From: Nitrospira tepida
Lineage (GTDB): Bacteria > Nitrospirota > Nitrospiria > Nitrospirales > Nitrospiraceae
Direction: 5' to 3'
Length of the DNA stretch: 64,000 nt
NCBI RefSeq assembly: GCF_947241125.1
Contig: NZ_OX365700.1
Location: forward strand, 4,374,461-4,438,460
Positions 3,541 through 60,004 of the stretch are shown here, piece by piece. Made by a program: the position numbers and the translations under genes. The stretch's first letter is position 1; every line of letters begins with the position of its first letter. The notes beneath the pieces were generated by a model, which saw nothing but the letters and a program-made list of their open reading frames with translations, made no database searches and was not told the DNA's origin.

Positions 3541-6036
3541 ATGGATAAATTCAAACTGCCGCCCTCGTTGCTGACTCCCGTCATTGACCCGGAGGGGTTG
3601 GGCTTTGAACAAACGGGCGAGTTGACGCCGCTCGATGAGACGATCGGCCAGGAGCGCGCGGTCGAGGCCTTGGAATTCGGACTCCACATGAAGGGTCCCG
3701 GCTTCAACCTCTACGTCGCCGGCCCGGCCGGCACCGGCAAGGCCTCCTTGGTGCGCCGCATGGTCCGGCGGATGGCGCGAGAGGAGCCGCCCCCGCCGGA
3801 TTGGTGCTATGTGAACAATTTCCAGGATCCCTCTCAGCCAAGCTGCTTGCGCTTTCCCGCCGGACAGGGCCGCGTCTTTGCACAGGCCATGGCGGTCTTC
3901 GTCCAAGGCCTTCGCCGGGACATTCCTACGACCTTTGAAAGCAAACCCTACCTGGACGCCAAGGCCAAGATTCACGACGAAACGGAAGCGAAAAAGAAGG
4001 CGCTGTTCCGGGAGCTGCATGAATTCGGCCGCGAGCACGGGTTCGGCTTTGAGGAGCTGCCGATGGGCTTCGGCCTGGTCCCGTTGAGATCCGGCCGGCC
4101 CATGACCGAGGAAGAGATCGAGCAGCTTTCCGATCACGAACGGCGTGCCCTCAGCGAGCAGCGCAAGGCGCTCGAAAGCGAGATCCGTGAGTTTCATGTC
4201 CGCATCCATGCGCTCGACCATGAGGCGGAGCGGCGGCTGTTGGACCTGGACCGGCAGGTCGTGCAGACGGTCATGGAAGATCGCTTTGCGGCGGTGCGGC
4301 AGGCCTATCAGGCCATGCCGGATGTCCGCGCTTATCTCGACCGCCTGCATGAAGACGTGGTGACGCATTATCGGGACTTCCTGCCGAAAGACAAGCCGGC
4401 GCTGCCCTTTCTTGCGATCGACGGGGCCTCGCCCAGAACCGACCTGACCCGCTACCAGGTCAACCTGCTGGTGGAACATGCCGCGGACCAGGGCGCGCCG
4501 GTGATTGATGAATCGCATCCGACCTATGCCAACTTGATCGGAAAGATCGAGCGGAAGGCCCATATGGGCGTCATGTACACGGACTTCACGGAGATCAAAG
4601 CCGGCGCGCTGCTGCGGGCGAACGGCGGCTATCTCGTCCTGAGCGCGGTCGACGTCCTGCGCCAGCCGTTCTCCTGGGATGCGTTGAAGCGGGTCCTGAA
4701 GACCGGCCACCTCACGATCGAGGACGCGAGCGAATACGTCGGCTTCTCGACCATCGGGCTCAAGCCGGAGCCCATACCCGTCGACGTGAAGGTCATTCTC
4801 GTGGGCCCGCCGATCGTGTACCAGCTCTTGCAGGCCTACGAGGAGGACTTTCGCAAGATCTTCAAGGTCAAGGCCGACTTCGATGTGGATATCGAGCGGA
4901 GCGAGCAACAGGACCGCCAATATGCCCGCTTCATCGCTCGGGTCTGCCGCGACGAGCAGCTTCCCCACTTCAGCAAGGAGGCGGTCGCCGCGGTCATCCA
5001 CCGGGGATTCCGCCTGGCCGAGCGGCACGATCGCCTGTCCCTGCGCTTCAGCCTCATCTCGGACCTGATCCGCGAGGCCGGATTCTGGGCGCAGCGGGAC
5101 GGCCGCCGGTTGGTGACCGACGCCGATGTCGAAACCGCGATCGACCACAAGCGCCGCCGCTCGAATCTCGCCGAACAATGGATTCAGGATGAGATCCGCG
5201 AAGGCACCTTGCTGGTGGACGTGGACGGCGAGGTGATGGGCCAGGTCAACGGGCTCTCCCTGCACCTGCTCGGCGACTATGCCTTCGGGCGGCCCTGCCG
5301 GATCACCGCCCGCGTGTCGGTCGGGACCAAAGGCGTGATCGACATCCAACGGGAAGCCGAGCTGGCCGGCCACGTGCACAGCAAGGGCGTGCTCACGCTC
5401 GCCGGTTATCTGGCCGGCAAATTCGCCGGCACGCACCCCTTCGCGCTGAACGCCACCTTGACCTTCGAACAGACCTACTCCGAAGTCGAAGGCGACAGCG
5501 CGGCGGCGGCCGAATTGATCGCGATCCTGTCGAGCCTGGCCGAGGTGCCGGTGAAACAGTCGCTCGCCATCACCGGGTCCGTGAATCAATTGGGAGAGAT
5601 CCAGCCGATCGGCGGGGTCAACGAGAAGATCGAGGGCTTCTTCGAGACCTGCCGGCGGCGCGGGTTGACCGGCCGGCAAGGGGTCATCATTCCCGCCCGC
5701 AACATCAAGCACCTGGCGCTGCGGCCCGAGGTCGTGAAGGCCGTGGAAACCGGGACCTTCGCGGTGTACGGCGTGAACAGCGTGGAAGAAGCTGTGGAAC
5801 TCATGACGGGCCTCGCCGCAGGAGAACGGGATCGGGAAGGGTTCTATCCGGAGGAGAGCCTCTTCGGCCGCGTCGATCTGCGGATGGAGGAACTCGCCCA
5901 GATCGTCGCAAGCTGGGGCGAGATGGTCGCCAAAGCAAGCTCGGGGCCGGTTGAAACCGGAAAGGAATCGGCCCGTCCTTCGTCCCCCGCCCGGCTCCGG
6001 TCGAGACACTTACCTACCACACCACATCCGGAGTAA
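3541..6036 (+). CDS. Lon-like ATP-dependent protease (AAA_32 / Lon C-terminal domain)
   Basis: 831 residues. The AAA part has a Walker A GPAGTGKAS at residues 61-69, followed by a long coiled insertion (about 140-260, charged). The C-terminal Lon protease domain has catalytic Ser in EGDSAAAA (Ser653) and Lys in GGVNEKIEG (Lys696). Their 43-residue spacing equals that of E. coli Lon Ser679/Lys722, so the dyad is intact. It lacks the N-terminal LAN domain of classical Lon and fits the shorter Lon-related family. Likely a cytoplasmic quality-control protease. The stop overlaps the ribosome site of the zinc-ribbon gene at 6042. Confidence 0.9.
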   Translation: MDKFKLPPSLLTPVIDPEGLGFEQTGELTPLDETIGQERAVEALEFGLHMKGPGFNLYVAGPAGTGKASLVRRMVRRMAREEPPPPDWCYVNNFQDPSQPSCLRFPAGQGRVFAQAMAVFVQGLRRDIPTTFESKPYLDAKAKIHDETEAKKKALFRELHEFGREHGFGFEELPMGFGLVPLRSGRPMTEEEIEQLSDHERRALSEQRKALESEIREFHVRIHALDHEAERRLLDLDRQVVQTVMEDRFAAVRQAYQAMPDVRAYLDRLHEDVVTHYRDFLPKDKPALPFLAIDGASPRTDLTRYQVNLLVEHAADQGAPVIDESHPTYANLIGKIERKAHMGVMYTDFTEIKAGALLRANGGYLVLSAVDVLRQPFSWDALKRVLKTGHLTIEDASEYVGFSTIGLKPEPIPVDVKVILVGPPIVYQLLQAYEEDFRKIFKVKADFDVDIERSEQQDRQYARFIARVCRDEQLPHFSKEAVAAVIHRGFRLAERHDRLSLRFSLISDLIREAGFWAQRDGRRLVTDADVETAIDHKRRRSNLAEQWIQDEIREGTLLVDVDGEVMGQVNGLSLHLLGDYAFGRPCRITARVSVGTKGVIDIQREAELAGHVHSKGVLTLAGYLAGKFAGTHPFALNATLTFEQTYSEVEGDSAAAAELIAILSSLAEVPVKQSLAITGSVNQLGEIQPIGGVNEKIEGFFETCRRRGLTGRQGVIIPARNIKHLALRPEVVKAVETGTFAVYGVNSVEEAVELMTGLAAGERDREGFYPEESLFGRVDLRMEELAQIVASWGEMVAKASSGPVETGKESARPSSPARLRSRHLPTTPHPE

Positions 6037-9905: not shown

Positions 9906-11921
9906 CTATTTGCTTCGCATCCGCTCAATTTTTACTCTCAGTTCTCTCACGATCGCCTCGAACGCGGCATCATGGTTAGGCCAACGCCCGCTCGCCACAG
10001 GCCGGTTATCCCGCGGTAAGGCTTGCGTTTTGTAATCGCCCTGATTAAACACACTGACCCAATCGCAAGGGCGCAAGATGATCGGAATTGGCACCGACTT
10101 CCCAACGGTACGCTGCCCAATCGCCCGCAAGAGCTCCTCTCGACAATACCGGGACTGAAGGAAGGACGCGCTGACGAGCAATAAGATGAGATCCGCTTCC
10201 CCGATCTCCTTATTGATCTCTCCTTCCCAATTAGCACCTGCTTCAATCTCCCGGTCGTGCCAGATCCTGATCAAACCCTCATCCACCAGAGGTGCCAGAT
10301 GCTCGCCTAACTTAGCACGCATTTTTTCATCTCTGTGGCTGTACGAGATGAAGAGCTTGAGGGGACCCCTACCAACTTGAGCCGGCCCACCATGGCCCTC
10401 GCTAGGCACGTTCTTTGCCACAGGCACTGGTCTAGTTGAAGGCGGTGCCGAACCTGGCATTGCCAATTCAACGGGCCTTAGAACTGGATCAAGTGGCTCC
10501 ATTTCAGCCCGCCAAGCGGTCAGATGGTTCTTAGATTGTTCACCCCCGGTTGCAAGTCCATCCAGTACAGCCAACTGAAGAAAGCGATGCACAAAGAAAA
10601 GGTCCACACGTTTGAAATAATCCTCCGAGTTGGCCGCAGCAACAAGTTCGGAGTTTAGTCTTATCGCACCGTTGGGTCGCCCAAGTATGGCCGCCGCCGC
10701 AGCAAGTCCGATACGCTCAAGAGGAGTAGCGGCTTCACGCTGCATGGTAAGAACACTCTCCAACAATGCTCTGTCACCAATGTAAGCAACTGCGAGCGCA
10801 GCATTCAGCCGCCAGTAGTCGTCATGCGAATCAAGCAATCTGGGAAGCTGCGGATGTCGTTGGCCCAGACGAGCGAGCGATACCACTGCTTCTGCGGAAG
10901 TGGGATCATCCCCTTTTACAACCGCGTTTAATACTGCCAGCGCCCGGTTCTTGTCGCTTGCTCGCCATGCAGCTTTGGCTATATGGGGCTGCCCCTCTTG
11001 GCGAGATGAAGTGAAGTGATCGATCAAGGCGTCAGTACCAGATACTGTTTCACTCCGCTCCAAAGTATGAAGGAGTGAGATCCGCACCGATTGAACCGGT
11101 TCACGCTGAAGCCACTCCGTCACTGGCCTCACGGTTCGCTGAAAACCGAGGCTCGCAAGAATTTGAGCGCCGAAGTCACGGACGCGCCAGTGCGCATGTT
11201 TAGACCAACGGGCAAGAATGTGGTCGGCAACCTTCCCATGACGCCATGTCAGAAATACATTATGAGCTTCTCCTGCTAATTCAGCACCATGAAGCGCTTC
11301 ATTAGAAAGCCTCGTGTCAGGTTGGTCACTGATCTCGGTAAGCTTGTACCCCGGCCATTCATGAGTGATGAGTTGCTCGATCGCCCATCTATGATGATCT
11401 TCGCCGGTTCTCGCAAACGCGGCGCAGGCGCCACGAAATGCAGATGTACGTAGCTTTTCCCACGCGAAACGGCTGCCGCTTACATTGTCCCACAGCATTG
11501 CGGCACCACCCCCAGCGTAGCCCCACGCCAGCAAGCGGTTCCAGGCTGGATCGTAGTCGAGAAGCGTGGCTCTGGTGGGTTGTGAATCCTTGAAGTCGTT
11601 CGAAAGTTGTGCATATAACGCGCGCATGACCCCAGGATTTTCGCTGATTCCAGCGAAAAGGTACGCCGCTACATGGGCATCCTTGAATCGGTCCTGGTTC
11701 TCCATCCGATCGATGAGCCGGACCGTCCCCACATTAGGACGGGAGGCAACGTATTGCAGCCAGCGACGACGCACTTGCATCGTCTTCGGATCTTCGATCC
11801 TACGTGAAAACAACGCGTCTTCTCCAGAGTTCCCAAGCACCAGTAGGTCACGAAGCGCCTGCGTACCGGCTATTGGATCACCACCAAGAAAGCGCTCGAC
11901 GAGCTGATCCGGATTCGACAC
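9906..11921 (-). CDS. HEAT-repeat protein with C-terminal TIR domain
   Basis: 671 residues. Residues about 1-480 are helical HEAT-like repeats (for example RLNAALAVAYIGDRALLESV). After a Pro-rich hinge (about 488-518) comes a TIR domain, 521-671. It begins LKLFISYSHRDEKMRAKLGE and has an IWHDREIEAG loop and SRYCREELLRA, where Glu596 sits at the catalytic position of TIR NADases. Bacterial TIR proteins often act in defence by cleaving NAD or making cyclic ADP-ribose signals. Here the repeats would sense or scaffold. Standalone gene, 226 bases from the acuI stop. NADase activity is inference. Confidence 0.8.
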   Translation of the reverse strand: MSNPDQLVERFLGGDPIAGTQALRDLLVLGNSGEDALFSRRIEDPKTMQVRRRWLQYVASRPNVGTVRLIDRMENQDRFKDAHVAAYLFAGISENPGVMRALYAQLSNDFKDSQPTRATLLDYDPAWNRLLAWGYAGGGAAMLWDNVSGSRFAWEKLRTSAFRGACAAFARTGEDHHRWAIEQLITHEWPGYKLTEISDQPDTRLSNEALHGAELAGEAHNVFLTWRHGKVADHILARWSKHAHWRVRDFGAQILASLGFQRTVRPVTEWLQREPVQSVRISLLHTLERSETVSGTDALIDHFTSSRQEGQPHIAKAAWRASDKNRALAVLNAVVKGDDPTSAEAVVSLARLGQRHPQLPRLLDSHDDYWRLNAALAVAYIGDRALLESVLTMQREAATPLERIGLAAAAAILGRPNGAIRLNSELVAAANSEDYFKRVDLFFVHRFLQLAVLDGLATGGEQSKNHLTAWRAEMEPLDPVLRPVELAMPGSAPPSTRPVPVAKNVPSEGHGGPAQVGRGPLKLFISYSHRDEKMRAKLGEHLAPLVDEGLIRIWHDREIEAGANWEGEINKEIGEADLILLLVSASFLQSRYCREELLRAIGQRTVGKSVPIPIILRPCDWVSVFNQGDYKTQALPRDNRPVASGRWPNHDAAFEAIVRELRVKIERMRSK

Positions 11922-13141: not shown

Positions 13142-13582
13142 TCAGCCAAGTGGAAACGTGCCAGAGATTGTCGTACTCCTACCTACCGTAGGCGCAATCT
13201 CGATTTGAAACTTTCCACCTTCTGTCGGTTGCTCGCTTTCGTCCAGAGGGAAAACCAGGTCATGCACTTGTATCTCATGTGAATCGAGTCGTATGAAGGA
13301 GTCTACTCTCACCTGCTGATATGCCTTCTGTTGCCCGATGGCGAGCGAAATTGTCTTAATATAGACAACTCGACTGTTACGGTTCGTCAAAGCAAGCCTT
13401 ACATGATAGCGACGTGGCCAAGGACTGATCACAACTATCGAGTCATTAGAGTTGATCCGCCTCTCCTCATATCGCAGGCATGAGACTTCACCTGCTATCG
13501 GGGACCGAAGCCAACCAATCAGTTTTGGCAGAAGCTGAATGAGGCTGTTGAGAAGCGATCCAATCGGAGTCAGTGGATCCAT
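13142..13582 (-). CDS. Unknown protein coupled to the RM-Fic gene
   Basis: 146 residues, not recognised. The ATG at 13582 overlaps the Fic stop as TGATG, a strong sign of coupled translation. The N-terminal 30 residues (MDPLTPIGSLLNSLIQLLPK...) form an amphipathic or membrane-associating helix. The remainder is beta-rich (VVISPWPRRYHVRLALTN, VVYIKTISLAIG), like an Ig-type sandwich. No catalytic motif is visible. Its location suggests it serves the RM-Fic system, perhaps as membrane anchor or accessory factor (inference). Confidence 0.6.
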   Translation of the reverse strand: MDPLTPIGSLLNSLIQLLPKLIGWLRSPIAGEVSCLRYEERRINSNDSIVVISPWPRRYHVRLALTNRNSRVVYIKTISLAIGQQKAYQQVRVDSFIRLDSHEIQVHDLVFPLDESEQPTEGGKFQIEIAPTVGRSTTISGTFPLG

Positions 13583-16500
13583 CAAAGTGCTTCAGAAAGG
13601 CGATGAGACCATATGCTTGTTAGACGGGTGAGGTCTCCACTGTCGGCGGTCTGCAACGCATCGAGATAATTGCGCCTGGATAATGGTTCAATTGGAGCGG
13701 TTTCAATATGTGGGAGGGAAAGCTTGTATAACAGTGCACCAAGGAGCACTCGGCCGATGCGGCCATTGAAATCTTTGAAGGGGTGAATCCATTGGAAGCG
13801 CCAGTCTGCCCAGGCGAGGAATTCTGCCGCACGCCTGACAGTCGCACCGGGATCATGTCGCAGACGTTCGGCTAGGTCATCGCAGAAGGTCCGCATGTGA
13901 ATCGGTACTTCATAGAACGGCGGTGGGTTGTGGGAACCAACCTGCACATTCACATCACGGAACCGTCCGGCCCAATCAGGATACAGGTGACCGGCTAGTC
14001 GCTTGTGCCGAATACAGAGCCACTCCGAGGTAATGACAATCTGATCCGGGTTCGTTTGCAGGATCTCGTCGTAGATCGCGACAAGGGGGACGGCCAGCCG
14101 CTCAGAGAGTTCCGGATAGGAAAGGCGACCTTCGGCGGTGTCGAACTCGCGAGTGGAGCTTAGCTCGCTTTGCTCTTCAGTCCCGTCAGGGTCCTCAGGC
14201 GTTCCGTACTGACCGGTTGGTTCTCGAACGCCATGGACTGGCTCACGCGCTCCAAAAGGACTTTCCGGTGTGCTGCCGCCACCTTCGCGGGCGTATCGTG
14301 CTGCTTCCGCCACTGTTGTAGCCATGCCTGGACCTGGGCCAGGTCGATCGGTTGGTTCGGGTTCTGTTTCATGGTCTTCATTCTCCTTCAGCTTCGGCGA
14401 AGATGCAACCGACGCCGCTTCGACGATCCTGATCTCCTCCTCCGTCAAACCATAGAGGTCATACACCAAGCGGTCGATCTCCTGATCGGTTGCGTTGATC
14501 TGGCGCTGGAGACGGTCCTTGTCGGCAGGTGTCTTGCCCTCTGGGAGACGCTTGTGCAAATCCAACATGCGCTCGACCAACGAGACCATCTGATCATGCC
14601 TGCTTTTATCCGCCTTGTCACACAGGCTTAGAATTCTTATTGGAAGCCGCTCGACATTTGTCTTTTTAACTTCGGCTAGAGCCTCACCGGCTTCTGGATT
14701 CAATGCTTGGTAGCACCAGTTAAGAAGCTTCGAGTTGATCACCCCGAGCAGAAACTTAGCTGAAACCTCATTCTCATGTGGGACCAAAACGTGCATGTTG
14801 TTAAGACAGAGATACTGTCTGTCGTCCAATGCAGCAACAAGGCTGTCACCTGTCTGCCGCATTACAATCTTCACTGGTGCGTCAAAGTCAGCAGCTGGCC
14901 TTGGCTCGGCAAGCCATGGACCGTACCTTAAAAAGCGTGGCTGTAATGGCGCAATGACAAAACGGTTTATGTCGGAACCTCGGAGATAAGGCCGAAATGA
15001 GGTGGTCTTCTGTCGATTACTATCAAATGGCCGACTCTGAACAATCGCTTTGGTTTGTGGAGGAGTACCTTTCCCAACTTGGTAAGGCTTGATTCCCACG
15101 TTGATTTCACAAAGTGAACCTAGTGCGGCACTGTTCGATTTGCATTTTTCAAGCAAAGTCTCCTCTTTTGGACTTGCGAAAATATTGACCGTGTCACCTT
15201 TCAGCTTTTCCCACTTCTTTTGATTGTGAAGAATCGTTCTAAGGCCTTGGCCATTAGCACCAAAGAGAAATGTTCCCAAGGACTCGAACACTTTTATTAC
15301 AACCTCCCCATCTTGAGCGCGTGCATTCTGTAGGAGAACAATTTCGGTATCGACTGTCACCTTTGGGAACACAGAGAATTTGAAGTGCACAATCTCTCGA
15401 ACTCGTGTTTCTTCAAATACAAACCGCCTGATTTTGGTCTGCAGCAGGTTCGTAAGCCAGGGATTGGGAATGATCATCCCATAAAATCCTTCGTGTCGAA
15501 CGAGGCTTCTCATGCTACGTTCTAGAAAGAGAAGGTAGCTATCAAGTTGATAAGTCTGACTTGGATATTTTGAACTCAAGTAGGCTTTGTCCTGCCCATA
15601 AAAGTAAGCACCGTACGGCGGATTCCCGATCACCGCATCAAAGCCTCCTGCTTTCATGATTTCCGGGAACTCCGCCTGCCAATCGAACGGGTTCACTCGG
15701 CGCACTTCGTCTTCATCCGGTATCAGTTGCCCGGCAAAGTAATCCGGCCCGATGAGGCTGTTGCCGCATTTGATGTTTTTGCCCAGGTCGGGCAGTACGC
15801 GCACTCGTCCAAATAACAACTCTTGCAGGGACTCCTGGTTCTCCCCCTCCAAAACCTTCAACAGCAGGCTGAGCTTGGTGACTTCGACAGCCTGGGGGTC
15901 AATGTCCACGCCATATATGTTGCTCAGGAGAATGCGTTTTTTCTCCTCGGTCCTGAGACGCCAATCGCCGCCAGTGGCCTTAAAAAGCTCTTTCTTGTGC
16001 TTGTCAGTCCCGTCCTTCACATACCAATCACGATGGTAGGTCAGCAGGAATTGATAGGCGCCGATCAGGAACGATCCCGATCCGCAGGCGGGATCTAGAA
16101 TCCTGAGCTTCGCAATCTGCTTCGGCGTCTTGCCCTGGCACAAGGTACCGACGGTGTGCTTGACGATGTACTCCACGATGTACGCGGGGGTGTAATAGAC
16201 GCCTCCGGCTTTCCTCACCTCCGGTTTCTCTTCGATCCTGGCCTGATGGCTTGCGGTTAGCCGAATCACTTTCCCGAGGAATTGCTCGTAGACCTGCCCG
16301 AGGATTTCCACAGGCAAGACCGAGAACTCGTAGGGGCTCTCCGGGTAGTACAGGCGCCCGATGATGTCTTTGAGTACCTTGTCATCGATCTTCAGCCGCG
16401 GTGTCAGATCGTCCGGCGATTCAGCCCGGTCCTTTTCAGGATGAAAATGAAAGAGGCCAGAGTTGTAACGGTCGTCGGCTCGGTCGTAGAGATAGCGGAG

Positions 16501-17292
16501 CCGGCTGTAGATGTTCTGGCCGTTCTGCAGCCCCTGAAGCTGCCCATAGGACTCGACGCCGCGATCCTCGCAGATCCGGAGAAAGATGAGGCGATCAATG
16601 GTGCGCTGGACCGAAAAGTTCAGCTCTTGGACGGACAGTTTGGGATTGCGCAGGGCCAGGTTCTTAGCCAGAGCTTCCCGCCAACTCTCAATCTCTTTGA
16701 GAAATTCGGCATCGACGGTGGCCGTGCCCCGCTTCCTCTCGGCACCCGCATACTTGTCGAAGGAACCTTTGAGGACCGAATCCTTCGAGAAGATGGCCGC
16801 AATCTTGTGCCATTCCGCTGGATAGTCTTTGTATGTCCAGTAGTGGATGCGGCCGATGCCCGGCTTGTCGGAGGGGTTCGGGCGTGTCCGGCAGTCGTAG
16901 ACTGCGAATTCTTCGAAGTCGGTCAGGATCGAGAGCGGGAGCTTGGCCGACCAGGCATAGCGGCGGAGTTGATAGGCGGGAGGAATCTCGTCCTTAACGT
17001 TGACAGCCGGCTTCTTGGCTTCGAGGAAAAACTTGCGCGCCCCACCGATGCGAAAGCAGTAGTCCGGCGCTTTGGATGCGCCGCCGATCTTGATGGCATC
17101 CTCGTGGATGACATCCTTATAGGCTTCGGCATGACCGGCCTTGTTGGCGACATCCCAGCCGAGGGCCTCGAAAAACGGATCGAGGAATTCTCGCCGCAGT
17201 TGGGTCTCGTTGTAGCCTTGGCTTTTGTAGGCCTCCCGGTTTCGATCAAACCGCTCGATCAGGTCTGAGATGATACCCGGAGCCTGCCCCAT
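13582..17292 (-). CDS. Type IIG restriction-modification enzyme reading into a C-terminal Fic domain
   Basis: 1236 residues in one frame. N-terminal nuclease-like domain: Asp77 in APDYCFRIGG with Glu91-Ala-Lys93 in FLEAKKP (PD-ExK pattern). N6-adenine methylase: motif I ILDPACGSGSFLIGA near residue 400 and NPPY near 555 (Eco57I type). A target-recognition region follows, with the RM part seeming to end near YDLYGLTEEEIRIVE (about 960). Residues 974-1044 are an odd low-complexity linker. Residues about 1050-1236 form a Fic domain with HPFKDFNGRIGR near 1168-1181 (usual HPFxxGNGRxxR; Phe replaces the first Gly). The linker coincides with a nested out-of-frame gene at 14160-14372. The fusion may be real or the result of a lost stop. 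Confidence 0.85.
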   Translation of the reverse strand: MGQAPGIISDLIERFDRNREAYKSQGYNETQLRREFLDPFFEALGWDVANKAGHAEAYKDVIHEDAIKIGGASKAPDYCFRIGGARKFFLEAKKPAVNVKDEIPPAYQLRRYAWSAKLPLSILTDFEEFAVYDCRTRPNPSDKPGIGRIHYWTYKDYPAEWHKIAAIFSKDSVLKGSFDKYAGAERKRGTATVDAEFLKEIESWREALAKNLALRNPKLSVQELNFSVQRTIDRLIFLRICEDRGVESYGQLQGLQNGQNIYSRLRYLYDRADDRYNSGLFHFHPEKDRAESPDDLTPRLKIDDKVLKDIIGRLYYPESPYEFSVLPVEILGQVYEQFLGKVIRLTASHQARIEEKPEVRKAGGVYYTPAYIVEYIVKHTVGTLCQGKTPKQIAKLRILDPACGSGSFLIGAYQFLLTYHRDWYVKDGTDKHKKELFKATGGDWRLRTEEKKRILLSNIYGVDIDPQAVEVTKLSLLLKVLEGENQESLQELLFGRVRVLPDLGKNIKCGNSLIGPDYFAGQLIPDEDEVRRVNPFDWQAEFPEIMKAGGFDAVIGNPPYGAYFYGQDKAYLSSKYPSQTYQLDSYLLFLERSMRSLVRHEGFYGMIIPNPWLTNLLQTKIRRFVFEETRVREIVHFKFSVFPKVTVDTEIVLLQNARAQDGEVVIKVFESLGTFLFGANGQGLRTILHNQKKWEKLKGDTVNIFASPKEETLLEKCKSNSAALGSLCEINVGIKPYQVGKGTPPQTKAIVQSRPFDSNRQKTTSFRPYLRGSDINRFVIAPLQPRFLRYGPWLAEPRPAADFDAPVKIVMRQTGDSLVAALDDRQYLCLNNMHVLVPHENEVSAKFLLGVINSKLLNWCYQALNPEAGEALAEVKKTNVERLPIRILSLCDKADKSRHDQMVSLVERMLDLHKRLPEGKTPADKDRLQRQINATDQEIDRLVYDLYGLTEEEIRIVEAASVASSPKLKENEDHETEPEPTDRPGPGPGMATTVAEAARYAREGGGSTPESPFGAREPVHGVREPTGQYGTPEDPDGTEEQSELSSTREFDTAEGRLSYPELSERLAVPLVAIYDEILQTNPDQIVITSEWLCIRHKRLAGHLYPDWAGRFRDVNVQVGSHNPPPFYEVPIHMRTFCDDLAERLRHDPGATVRRAAEFLAWADWRFQWIHPFKDFNGRIGRVLLGALLYKLSLPHIETAPIEPLSRRNYLDALQTADSGDLTRLTSIWSHRLSEAL
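14160..14372 (-). CDS. Nested class I Fic antitoxin-like protein (VbhA/FicA type)
   Basis: 70 residues in the +1 frame inside the RM-Fic gene. ATG at 14372 has AAGGAG 10 bases upstream; an in-frame ATG at 14381 is too close to that site. The stop TAA is at 14160-14162, just before the Fic domain coding begins in the other frame. The product is helical and basic, and contains SMAFEN, an exact match to the inhibitory [S/T]xxxE[G/N] helix motif of Fic antitoxins, set in LLERVSQSMAFENQPVSTER. By hand count 55 of 70 codons here end in G or C, against 29 of 70 for the RM-Fic frame over the same DNA. That points to this frame as the selected one. Antitoxin-then-Fic order matches vbhA-vbhT. Confidence 0.7.
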   Translation of the reverse strand: MKQNPNQPIDLAQVQAWLQQWRKQHDTPAKVAAAHRKVLLERVSQSMAFENQPVSTERLRTLTGLKSKAS

Positions 17293-32853: not shown

Positions 32854-34238
32854 CTAGTCATGCCTGATTAAATGAAAACGGCTGCACCGTCGGGGCCGAG
32901 GTAGAATGCGGTCTCGATGGACCACGGAGCGGAAGCGAAAGCTCCGAAGGTGCTCGCTCCCACGGACGGGAGGGCACAACCCTCAACCAGGAGGTGCAGC
33001 CGTGAGCCAGTATATCGGGATCGATCTCCACAAGGCAAAGTCCTTCGTGACCCGGCTCGATCATCGGGGCCGCGTGCTGGAGCAGCGCGAACTCACCCAC
33101 GCCACCGGCGAGTTGCAACAGTATTTGGAGCGGTTGCCGGCGGAGACGCGCATTGCGGTGGAGGCGACGGGCAATTGGATGTGGTTGTATGAACTGATCG
33201 AGGAGCGGCATCCGGATCTGGTGTTGGCGCACCCGCTGAAGACCAAGGCCATCGCCAGTGCGCGCATCAAGACGGATAAGATCGATGCGACGACGTTGGC
33301 GCAGTTGCTGCGCGCGGACTTGGTCCCGGCGGCCTACATTCCGCCGCGCGACGTGCGGGATACTCGGGAGGTGCTTCGGTATCGAGCCTCCTTGGTGCGG
33401 CTGCGGACGCAGGTGAAGAACAAGATCGCGGCGGTCGTCAGTAAGACCGGGCTCCAGACGCCGACGCGGATGGCCTGCGGCGTGAAGAGCCGCCGCTTTC
33501 TGGCGACCGTTTCGGTGCGGTCGTGCTACCGACTCGGGCTCGACGGGTATCTCCGCACCTTGGAGCATCTGACCACTGAGATTCGCCAGGTCTCCAAGAC
33601 CATTGAGACCCAGGCGGCGGCTGAGCCCCAGGCGCGCTTGCTCCAGACGATGCCGGGCATTGGTGCGTACTCGGCGCTGTTGATCTTGAGTGAGATCGGC
33701 GACATTCAGCGATTCCCGGACAGTCGCCATCTGTGTTCGTATGCCGGGCTGGGGCCCTCGGTCCATGCCTCCGGCGGGAAGACCCGCCTGGGACGTCTGA
33801 CGAAACAGGGCTCGTCGTGGTTGCGGTGGATTCTGGTGGAGCTCTCCGTCCACGCGATCAACGCTGCTCCCCAGTTTCGGAGTCTCTACTATCGGGTGGC
33901 GAAGAAACATGGGCGGAACGTGGGCCGGGTGGCGGTGGCACGGGCCATGTTGAAGACGATCTACGCGATGTTAAAAAAGCAGGAGGCATTTCGCCCGATG
34001 GCGAAGGGCAGCACCGGTCAGCGCCCCGGGGTCATGGTCGGCTGACCATCCGCGGTGAGCCAGATCCGAAGTGCCTGATTGCGCGACCGGTGTCCCATTT
34101 CATCCTGGGCTATGAGCCCGCATAGGTGACTGACTCGTCGTCCACTGAGACGCGCGGGGGACCGAATCGCGGACGGGCATGCTCGCTCTTGACAGTCGTT
34201 TTCATAGGTGACCCTAATTTGCATCTAGTCATGCCTGA
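32854..34238 (+). mobile_element. IS110-family insertion sequence
   Basis: Contains the transposase at 33002-34045. Both outer limits are the 14-bp direct repeat CTAGTCATGCCTGA (32854-32867 and 34225-34238). A third copy of the core, TAGTCATGCCTGACCCCA, is at 34433-34450 without an element. IS110 elements lack terminal inverted repeats, and the 5' non-coding 134 bases (32868-33001) are where a target-guiding (bridge) RNA would be expected in this family. Exact ends are inferred. Confidence 0.7.
33002..34045 (+). CDS. IS110-family DEDD transposase
   Basis: 347 residues. GTG at 33002 follows AGGAGG (32989-32994). N-terminal RuvC-like domain: Asp in YIGIDLHKAK, Glu in IAVEATGNW, two Asp in KTDKIDATTLA. 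C-terminal Tnp_20 domain: MPGIGAYSALLILSEIGDI, LCSYAGLGPS and KQGSSWLRW, whose Ser acts as nucleophile in the family. It appears complete. It could move the element with a guide RNA encoded in its flanks. Confidence 0.93.
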   Translation: MSQYIGIDLHKAKSFVTRLDHRGRVLEQRELTHATGELQQYLERLPAETRIAVEATGNWMWLYELIEERHPDLVLAHPLKTKAIASARIKTDKIDATTLAQLLRADLVPAAYIPPRDVRDTREVLRYRASLVRLRTQVKNKIAAVVSKTGLQTPTRMACGVKSRRFLATVSVRSCYRLGLDGYLRTLEHLTTEIRQVSKTIETQAAAEPQARLLQTMPGIGAYSALLILSEIGDIQRFPDSRHLCSYAGLGPSVHASGGKTRLGRLTKQGSSWLRWILVELSVHAINAAPQFRSLYYRVAKKHGRNVGRVAVARAMLKTIYAMLKKQEAFRPMAKGSTGQRPGVMVG

Positions 34239-34592: not shown

Positions 34593-35588
34593 TTACGCCT
34601 CCGTCTTGTCCGCAAAATTAGCGAGAAACAGGCGCGCAATTTCTTTGCCATTTATCAATAACACGCCGTTGGCCTCAGCTAGCTTCTTCGCCTCCTCCGA
34701 GAAATGATCGGCCAGGCTCATTACGCATCCCTCGGCACCCGGATTTCTAGCCATCATCTTAACCACTTGATCAACCCCTTGTTGATCGCTGGTCCCTTTG
34801 TGCTTTTTTACCTGGGCAAACAGAATTGTCTCTCCTGGCTCAAAAGGTGATAGAGATCTTCTAAGCCGTCTACAGCGGAGATCTAGATCACCTCCTTGTC
34901 CATCAAAACTATTGCGCCCTTCGATGCTGTAGCCATCTGCTTTAAGCAGATATTCACAGATTGCTTCGAATGATATGGCAGTTTTTGAAGGAGCTACCTT
35001 GTTCAGCTCCTCTTGAATAAAAGCAACAACACGCTCTCTCGTGCTACTTAAGAAATCCTCCAGGCTCGATTTGTCATATCTGACGTGTGGATTTTCCTTG
35101 AGTGCCACTAGGATCTTTTGAAAATGGTTCTCGTAGCTTGGAATCTGTAAAATTGGAAGTCTCATCCACGGCAACTTGCCACGCCAAGCTGCTAACTCAT
35201 GGTTATCAATAGAAAGATTGCCATCGAGTCCATGAGATTCCCTTATTTTAATCCGATGATTTTGGCAGGTCGTGTCACCGTCCTCGTATTCATAGCAGTT
35301 CGGAAAATCACCATCCACCACGTGAATACTTACCTTGTTCTCTTCGGGGAGATGAGGAACTACCAAGAGATCTCCGTTCCTGAAAGCTTTTATCCACGTC
35401 AGATTCGTAGGGACTCGAGTGGTGGCCAGCTGATGATAGAGCTTGCATTCTTCAACAAAGTTCTCTCCATCGACTCTTAGGTCTCTCTCTCCTCCACCTC
35501 CCCATCCTTGGGACAACCGCCTTTGCTCCACCACTCGTCTTAAAATTTCACTTCTATGAGAACGATCGAATCTAAAGTTGTATATCAT
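34593..35588 (-). CDS. Mrr-like restriction endonuclease-fold protein
   Basis: 331 residues. The C-terminal part (about 205-325) is Mrr-like: FEAICEYLLKADGYSIEGR, GGDLDLRCRR with the catalytic Asp, then ILFAQVKKHKG giving the Gln-x-Lys pair. The N-terminal 200 residues are not recognised and may read the target or a partner. Codon use is more AT-rich than its neighbours, a sign of transfer. Probably attacks modified or foreign DNA (inference). Confidence 0.78.
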   Translation of the reverse strand: MIYNFRFDRSHRSEILRRVVEQRRLSQGWGGGGERDLRVDGENFVEECKLYHQLATTRVPTNLTWIKAFRNGDLLVVPHLPEENKVSIHVVDGDFPNCYEYEDGDTTCQNHRIKIRESHGLDGNLSIDNHELAAWRGKLPWMRLPILQIPSYENHFQKILVALKENPHVRYDKSSLEDFLSSTRERVVAFIQEELNKVAPSKTAISFEAICEYLLKADGYSIEGRNSFDGQGGDLDLRCRRLRRSLSPFEPGETILFAQVKKHKGTSDQQGVDQVVKMMARNPGAEGCVMSLADHFSEEAKKLAEANGVLLINGKEIARLFLANFADKTEA

Positions 35589-58936: not shown

Positions 58937-60004
58937 ATGAAAGCAAAGAGAGTTTTCCTGCTTGGAGCTGGAGCCTCACATGGAGCACGGACACCGAGAC
59001 CACCTTTAGGCACGACACTCCATCAATATCTGATTAGGTACCTTAAGGCTGCCTGGGATGAACTCAAGCAGCTAGAGGACGACGACGGTACGATTTCTTC
59101 ATCCGTTCGAGATGAACTACAAAAGCATCTTGCTTCTACAACATCATTCGAAGTGCTTGCAGGTGCACTTCAAGATTCTGGAAATTTTCAGCTTTTGCAA
59201 AAACTTAACTTTTTAGCGGCTTGTGCCCTCGCTCCTCCTGTCAATGATGACCCTCGATATGATGATGCATTTATCGAAAAGCCTGATGTTTACGACAGGT
59301 TACTATCTCATGTCTTCGCAACTTGCGGATCCGCAAAAGATATCTCTTTCATCACACTCAATTATGACTGCCTTCTCGAACGGGCGATTTGTCGATATAT
59401 GGAAGCAGTAGATGGAAGCGCAGGGCTAGGATGCCGATGTGCGTTGGTGAATTATATGCTACCGGGATACGGAGGCAAGGTTGAAGTACTAAAACCGCAC
59501 GGATCGATCAATTGGATGCCGGATATCTTGATGGGTGACGGTACGCTTACAGAAAACCAGCCGGTTCCTCTTACGATGAGGATTAGGCATGATGGATCGC
59601 AAAGTTACAAGAGGATCGCTGTTGTAGACTCGCCAAAACATGGCGAGTCGGAAGATGTGTTGATAGCCTATTACGCCCCTCGGAAATGGTCTAAGGTTAA
59701 TCTCGACACGCTTGAAATCGTCCGAGGAATCGCGTGCGAACGTATCTCACATGCGCAGGAAGTCACTGTAATCGGCGTGAAACTTCGCTCTGACCCGCTC
59801 GATGATCCTTTCCTAAGCCGAGTCCAGGTGTTACTGCAAGCAAAGGCACGGAAGTTTTCTGGATCGGTTACATATGTTTCTCCTTTACGCGATGATGCTC
59901 TGACTGCCCAGGCTTTTGATTTTTCCACTCAAGAGGTCACTTTTGAAGAATATGTGGAACTTTTGGAAAGATCTTGGGGCTCGAGTGGTCTATCGAAAGC
60001 ATGA
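58937..60004 (+). CDS. SIR2-like domain protein
   Basis: 355 residues. FLLGAGASHGARTPRPP gives the GAGAS nucleotide loop; ITLNYDCLLERA is the Asn-x-Asp pair; VEVLKPHGSINWMPD has the catalytic His. This fits SIR2-like NAD-consuming proteins found in defence systems (for example with Argonaute or Thoeris-like partners). No partner gene is next to it. Lower GC and different codon use than its flanks imply recent acquisition. Confidence 0.8.
   Translation: MKAKRVFLLGAGASHGARTPRPPLGTTLHQYLIRYLKAAWDELKQLEDDDGTISSSVRDELQKHLASTTSFEVLAGALQDSGNFQLLQKLNFLAACALAPPVNDDPRYDDAFIEKPDVYDRLLSHVFATCGSAKDISFITLNYDCLLERAICRYMEAVDGSAGLGCRCALVNYMLPGYGGKVEVLKPHGSINWMPDILMGDGTLTENQPVPLTMRIRHDGSQSYKRIAVVDSPKHGESEDVLIAYYAPRKWSKVNLDTLEIVRGIACERISHAQEVTVIGVKLRSDPLDDPFLSRVQVLLQAKARKFSGSVTYVSPLRDDALTAQAFDFSTQEVTFEEYVELLERSWGSSGLSKA

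Follow-up and report, generated by a model that had tools for sequence, protein, structure and literature searches.

A gene for a Type IIG restriction-methylation (RM) enzyme with a C-terminal Fic domain is located on the minus strand of the analysed window, a stretch of 64,000 nucleotides from the complete 4.73-Mb genome of Nitrospira tepida. The nearest relatives at the locus are from Nitrospira. The gene (nt 13582–17292) is a single open reading frame (ORF) encoding 1236 residues, and all the features described for it are on the same strand. PADLOC assigns the ORF to REase_MTase_IIG (E 3.9e-203), and the Pfam domains matched are HSDR_N, Eco57I, TaqI_C and Fic. The HSDR_N-like nuclease region (nt 16876–17112, E 2.5e-9) harbors PDYCF...FLEAK, which resembles a PD-(D/E)xK site. 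It is followed by the Eco57I methylase domain (nt 15367–15921, E 1.6e-38), with NPPY at nt 15613–15624, and by the TaqI_C specificity domain (nt 14638–14991, E 3.5e-20). Nuclease, methylase and specificity parts in one chain characterize the Eco57I-like Type IIG enzymes that PADLOC lists as REase_MTase_IIG. The present protein, the host of the small gene described below, differs from them by the Fic domain and by that nested gene. The same RM-Fic fusion is present in many Nitrospirota loci.

The Fic domain is encoded by nt 13729–14034 (Pfam Fic, E 1.1e-11). Its structure model has a pLDDT of 89, and Foldseek matches it to FICD, EcFicT and VbhT. The FIC motif, HPFKDFNGRIGR, covers host residues 1170–1181 (nt 13750–13785) and agrees with the catalytic pattern HxFx[D/E]xNGRxxR; the H, D, N and both R residues are invariant in 25 homologues. 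The sixth position of the motif in these homologues is F or L (L in L042), not the usual G or A. The domain is a probable AMP-transferase. Because F stands where G is usual, its chemistry may be other than AMPylation. A motif scan revealed no [S/T]xxxE[G/N] in the whole 1236-residue host protein or in any of the 25 Fic domains. Such a Fic protein, free of an inhibitory motif of its own, is typical of class I FicTA modules.

Several other genes in the window are worth recording. An ORF of 147 residues, of unknown family, lies at nt 13142–13585 (minus strand), and its TTG start overlaps the Fic stop codon by 4 nt; the ORFs 3′ of Fic in other loci looked unlike it. About 1.7 kb from RM-Fic, nt 9906–11921 (minus strand) encode a protein with HEAT repeats and a TIR domain at its C-terminus (Pfam TIR_2, ThsB-like in PADLOC), and the region around the two genes may be a small defence cluster. 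An IS110-type transposase gene (nt 32906–34045, plus strand) adjoins a gene for an Mrr-type restriction endonuclease (nt 34593–35588, minus strand) in a pocket of low GC content (0.51), which is likely acquired DNA. A second low-GC pocket (0.53) holds a 355-residue ORF without a Pfam match (nt 58937–60004, plus strand).

The nested small frame

Within the host gene, on the same strand and one base out of phase with it, nt 14160–14372 encode a protein of 70 residues, from an ATG at nt 14372 to a TAA at nt 14160–14162. An alternative in-frame ATG at nt 14381 would extend it by 3 residues to 73. A Shine-Dalgarno-like AAGGAG (nt 14383–14388) is found 10 nt before the 14372 ATG. An earlier note on this DNA had proposed that these 70 codons, preceded by a ribosome site and spelling SMAFEN, are a Fic antitoxin gene, and both the frame and the site are present. 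Its hand count of G or C at third codon positions, 55/70 in the small frame versus 29/70 in the host frame, agrees with the computed values of 0.79 and 0.41.

A search with the peptide identified 10 loci, all in Nitrospirota, with 49–82% identity. A profile search extended the family to 39 of the 296 Nitrospirota genomes sampled. The peptide had no match in the viral contigs and plasmids that were searched. Many of the loci are closely related, and many are from metagenome-assembled genomes. The sequence AGGAG is retained in most fused Nitrospira loci, the exceptions being L056, L061, L064, L008 and L010, and it is retained even where the overlying host residue is altered (K to Q in L005, L057 and L066).

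Among 12 fused Nitrospira loci, compared in 66 pairs, substitutions at positions 1, 2 and 3 of the small-frame codons number 322, 334 and 1134. Across the nested stretch, pN/pS is 0.21 for the small frame, 1.86 for the host frame and 1.90 for the third frame. Upstream and downstream of it, pN/pS is 0.09–0.25 for the host frame and 1.4–3.6 for the other frames. Thus selection switches to the other frame at the nested gene and then switches back. The earlier note had regarded the host linker as the shadow of a real gene. As far as the amino acids are concerned this holds; judged by these ratios, the host residues across the nested stretch are nearly free to vary, and the reading that is retained is open and linker-like.

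The nested family also occurs apart from the host. Intact genes without host or Fic are present in L059, L062 and L065, and L060 carries one beside a decayed Fic gene. On a Rhodococcus plasmid (L075), a 63-residue hypothetical protein (...VIHSMAMEGEPVS...; ...SMAMEGEPVS...) is encoded shortly before a Fic gene. This homologue is located beside Fic, not inside it, and the Rhodococcus Fic protein shares the N-terminal GSTRQFET with the Nitrospirota Fic.

The window is GC-rich and 277 ORFs in it are 70 codons long or longer, so the nested ORF alone proves nothing. One could suppose that it is untranslated and owes its conservation solely to constraint on the host linker; such an explanation is close to impossible, since the substitutions gather at small-frame third positions, which are host first positions, the host residues evolve freely while the small protein is constrained, and the protein persists without the host frame and, in Rhodococcus, as a gene of its own. 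Conservation among homologues, whose absence the earlier note would have taken as a refutation, and selection at the codon level raise the nested frame above chance. On these grounds the small frame is a real gene.

The host frame across the nested gene

Whether the host frame is kept open was examined through its stop codons. Expected stop codons were estimated by resampling the synonymous codons of the small protein according to local codon use, with the third frame and the loci where Fic is separate or lost as controls. In 19 loci with RM-Fic or a remnant of it, the host frame contains no stop versus 63.7 expected, a comparison to be read as a count only, since many loci are closely related and stop probabilities must not be multiplied across them. 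The third frame of the same loci contains 82 stops, with 58.4 expected. In nine loci with Fic separate or lost, 24 host-frame stops are observed versus 33.6 expected.

The fusion also recurs with other enzymes. L072 encodes a divergent RM enzyme of 1480 residues with the same fusion and a nested gene. In L042, L047, L050, L073 and L074 the RM part is absent, and the Fic frame is still open over the antitoxin; L073 and L074 retain a tail that resembles, by eye, that of the L072 RM enzyme. As a test of prediction, a further search was made with the Fic profile only, independent of the nested peptide. It revealed three new loci (L081–L083), and all three harbor a nested gene in the same relative frame. 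In L081 the Fic domain is fused to an RM enzyme.

It could be argued that the fusion is illusory, the locus being an ordinary operon in which an RM gene is followed by overlapping antitoxin and Fic genes, with Fic started separately and the host frame open by chance. Class I ficA and ficT are normally adjacent genes, and L067, L069 and L070, in which Fic is separate, do look so, with an ATG 7 codons before the antitoxin–Fic junction. Against this, no ATG, GTG or TTG common to the fused loci is found near the junction, stops are absent from the host frame in all 19 fused or remnant loci while the separate loci carry them, and the pattern recurs with the divergent enzymes of L072 and L081. The illusory fusion is therefore very improbable. 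In a tree of Fic sequences L069 and L070 are placed among the fused forms, indicating that their separation is probably secondary; the relevant fork is weakly supported. Some copies are decaying, as seen from RM frameshifts in L005 and L007 and stops in the RM part of L066. The pattern of stop codons shows that the host frame of the RM-Fic fusion is kept open over the antitoxin.

A programmed frameshift from the antitoxin into Fic was also considered. It was rejected, as inspection of the junction by eye revealed no conserved slippery sequence.

A candidate inhibitor of the tethered Fic domain

In class I Fic modules, inhibition is provided by a separate small protein, in which a helix carries [S/T]xxxE[G/N] and the Glu forms a bridge with the second FIC-motif Arg (PMC5033356). 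VbhA, one such protein, consists of three helices (PMC5033356). The nested protein is likewise predicted to fold into three helices (pLDDT 84). Its SMAFEN (nt 14220–14237) is situated at the end of the second predicted helix, residues 31–52. Across 40 homologues of the nested protein, four residues of the motif (S, M, F and E) do not vary. With S and E fixed and the gene beside or inside Fic, the inhibitor motif recognized in the earlier note stands. The motif is relaxed in one clade (L042 and L072–L074), which has SMEFEK, with K instead of G or N after the inhibitory Glu; this variant may tune or alter the inhibition.

The same note had suggested a search against the VbhA family (PF18495), and here the outcome went against it. 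VbhA is absent among the families listed for the 40 members, and the full list of Pfam matches of the window member does not contain it, nor is there any VbhA match at the locus. The Rhodococcus homologue reaches only E 0.18 with the VbhA profile. The small protein is outside Pfam VbhA as that model stands. Profile searches of Pfam, NCBIfam and PDB with the nested family gave no credible match, and Foldseek and VIA-align identified no structural relative of the nested-protein model, as is expected for a short helical chain. Weak Pfam matches to T3SS_needle_F and PROCN fell below the cut-off and were taken as chance. By every sequence criterion tested, the small protein fits class I FicA.

Alternatively, the small protein might be a partner of Fic with another function, such as an activator, a chaperone or a regulator of the restriction enzyme. 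The E-K motif of one clade and the missing VbhA match would suit such a protein. This reading is rather improbable in view of the invariant S-x-x-x-E at a helix end, the hallmark of class I inhibitors, and of a Fic domain without any internal inhibitor motif. The inhibitory motif that is missing from Fic itself most likely comes from the nested protein, which, by analogy with FicA and VbhA of class I, most likely acts as the inhibitor of Fic.

We propose that the locus very probably encodes toxin and antitoxin in overlapping frames, as a dual-coding module within the gene of a Type IIG restriction enzyme. A single mRNA would yield two proteins. Full-length translation would produce the restriction-methylation enzyme with its C-terminal Fic domain, and internal initiation at the 14372 ATG, one frame over, would produce the small three-helix antitoxin. 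The SMAFEN helix would enter the Fic active site, with Glu50 (in the 70-residue form) opposite Arg1181, the second FIC-motif Arg, and ATP would be blocked. When the antitoxin falls short, whether because the locus is lost, synthesis is shut off during infection or the antitoxin is degraded by proteases, the tethered Fic domain would become active and arrest the cell. Internal initiation, binding, inhibition, AMPylation, the target and the role in defence or addiction are what we infer from the gene arrangement and the motifs. Because the antitoxin is encoded just 5′ of Fic, it can precede the finished Fic domain. Because one DNA stretch is read in two frames, the toxin and its candidate antidote are hard to separate genetically.

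The Fic domain might instead regulate its own restriction enzyme by self-modification and not be a cell-arresting toxin, with the small protein setting the switch. The physical tethering of Fic to the RM enzyme and the unusual FIC motif would fit such a role, and similar Fic domains that occur without an RM enzyme (L069, L070 and L075) speak against it; we consider self-regulation unlikely. The toxin-antitoxin module may have a still wider meaning, as a dual-coding defence module spread across the phylum. Restriction would be the first line, and the tethered Fic the second, cell-arresting one, set free once the short-lived nested antitoxin is no longer translated. This extension is a real possibility rather than a probability. 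The orphan antitoxin genes, at nt 5034–5255 in L059 and likewise intact after Fic loss in L062 and L065, could protect their hosts against incoming RM-Fic modules.

Comparison with known systems shows what is particular here. VbhT-VbhA and EcFicT-EcFicA also combine a Fic protein devoid of its own inhibitory helix with a small helical [S/T]xxxE[G/N] protein encoded just 5′. Theirs are adjacent genes, whereas the present antitoxin is wholly inside and out of frame, and its host is also a restriction enzyme. The absence of a Pfam VbhA match and the F for G in the FIC motif further distinguish it from class I modules. In Rpn (RpnL/RpnS), a defence protein, internal initiation within the toxin gene likewise yields the antitoxin (PMC10327210). 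To the knowledge of its authors, writing in 2023, no earlier within-gene protein had been characterized as an antitoxin; RpnS is encoded in frame (PMC10327210). As in Rpn, the antitoxin gene is entirely inside the toxin gene (nt 14160–14372 within 13582–17292), and here both frames are under selection. RpnS is the C-terminal part of its own toxin, read in the same frame, whereas the nested protein is unrelated to its toxin and read in another frame; the toxin chemistry of Rpn is also unlike that of Fic. Sofic-AS1 pairs a defence protein of the Fic type with a small antitoxin, but Sofic belongs to class II, its inhibitory helix being internal, and AS1 is a separate downstream gene (PMC12249575). 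Another functional gene lying within a large bacterial gene, on the same strand and out of frame, is comS inside srfA (cited in PMC12350097); the two are not toxin and antitoxin.

The antitoxins known to be encoded within a gene, those of Rpn, are read in frame. Neither an out-of-frame nested antitoxin nor this RM-Fic fusion was found described in the open literature, a scope that leaves most subscription papers outside. If the proposal is true, this is an out-of-frame nested antitoxin with visible selection on both frames, for which the separate, orphan and decayed copies are natural controls. It would link Fic toxins to Type IIG restriction enzymes and suggest a role for hypothetical small proteins adjoining Fic genes. 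Annotation pipelines tend to drop nested out-of-frame ORFs, and more nested genes may therefore hide in the linkers of defence genes.

Small ORFs of similar type were observed near Fic genes in other arrangements. The Bacteroidota plasmids L077 and L076 each carry a short ORF (nt 4440–4610 and nt 4536–4727, respectively, both minus strand) that encodes SM.LEN..VS, is convergent to the Fic gene and overlaps its 3′ end. These ORFs may represent a different organization of this antitoxin type; the neighbour of the pair in L077 is a gene for a TaqI_C restriction enzyme. In L045 (nt 3988–5199), an antitoxin-like ORF is directly 5′ of a different Fic gene, of the HPFIDGNGR type, which has a STAIEGN motif of its own.
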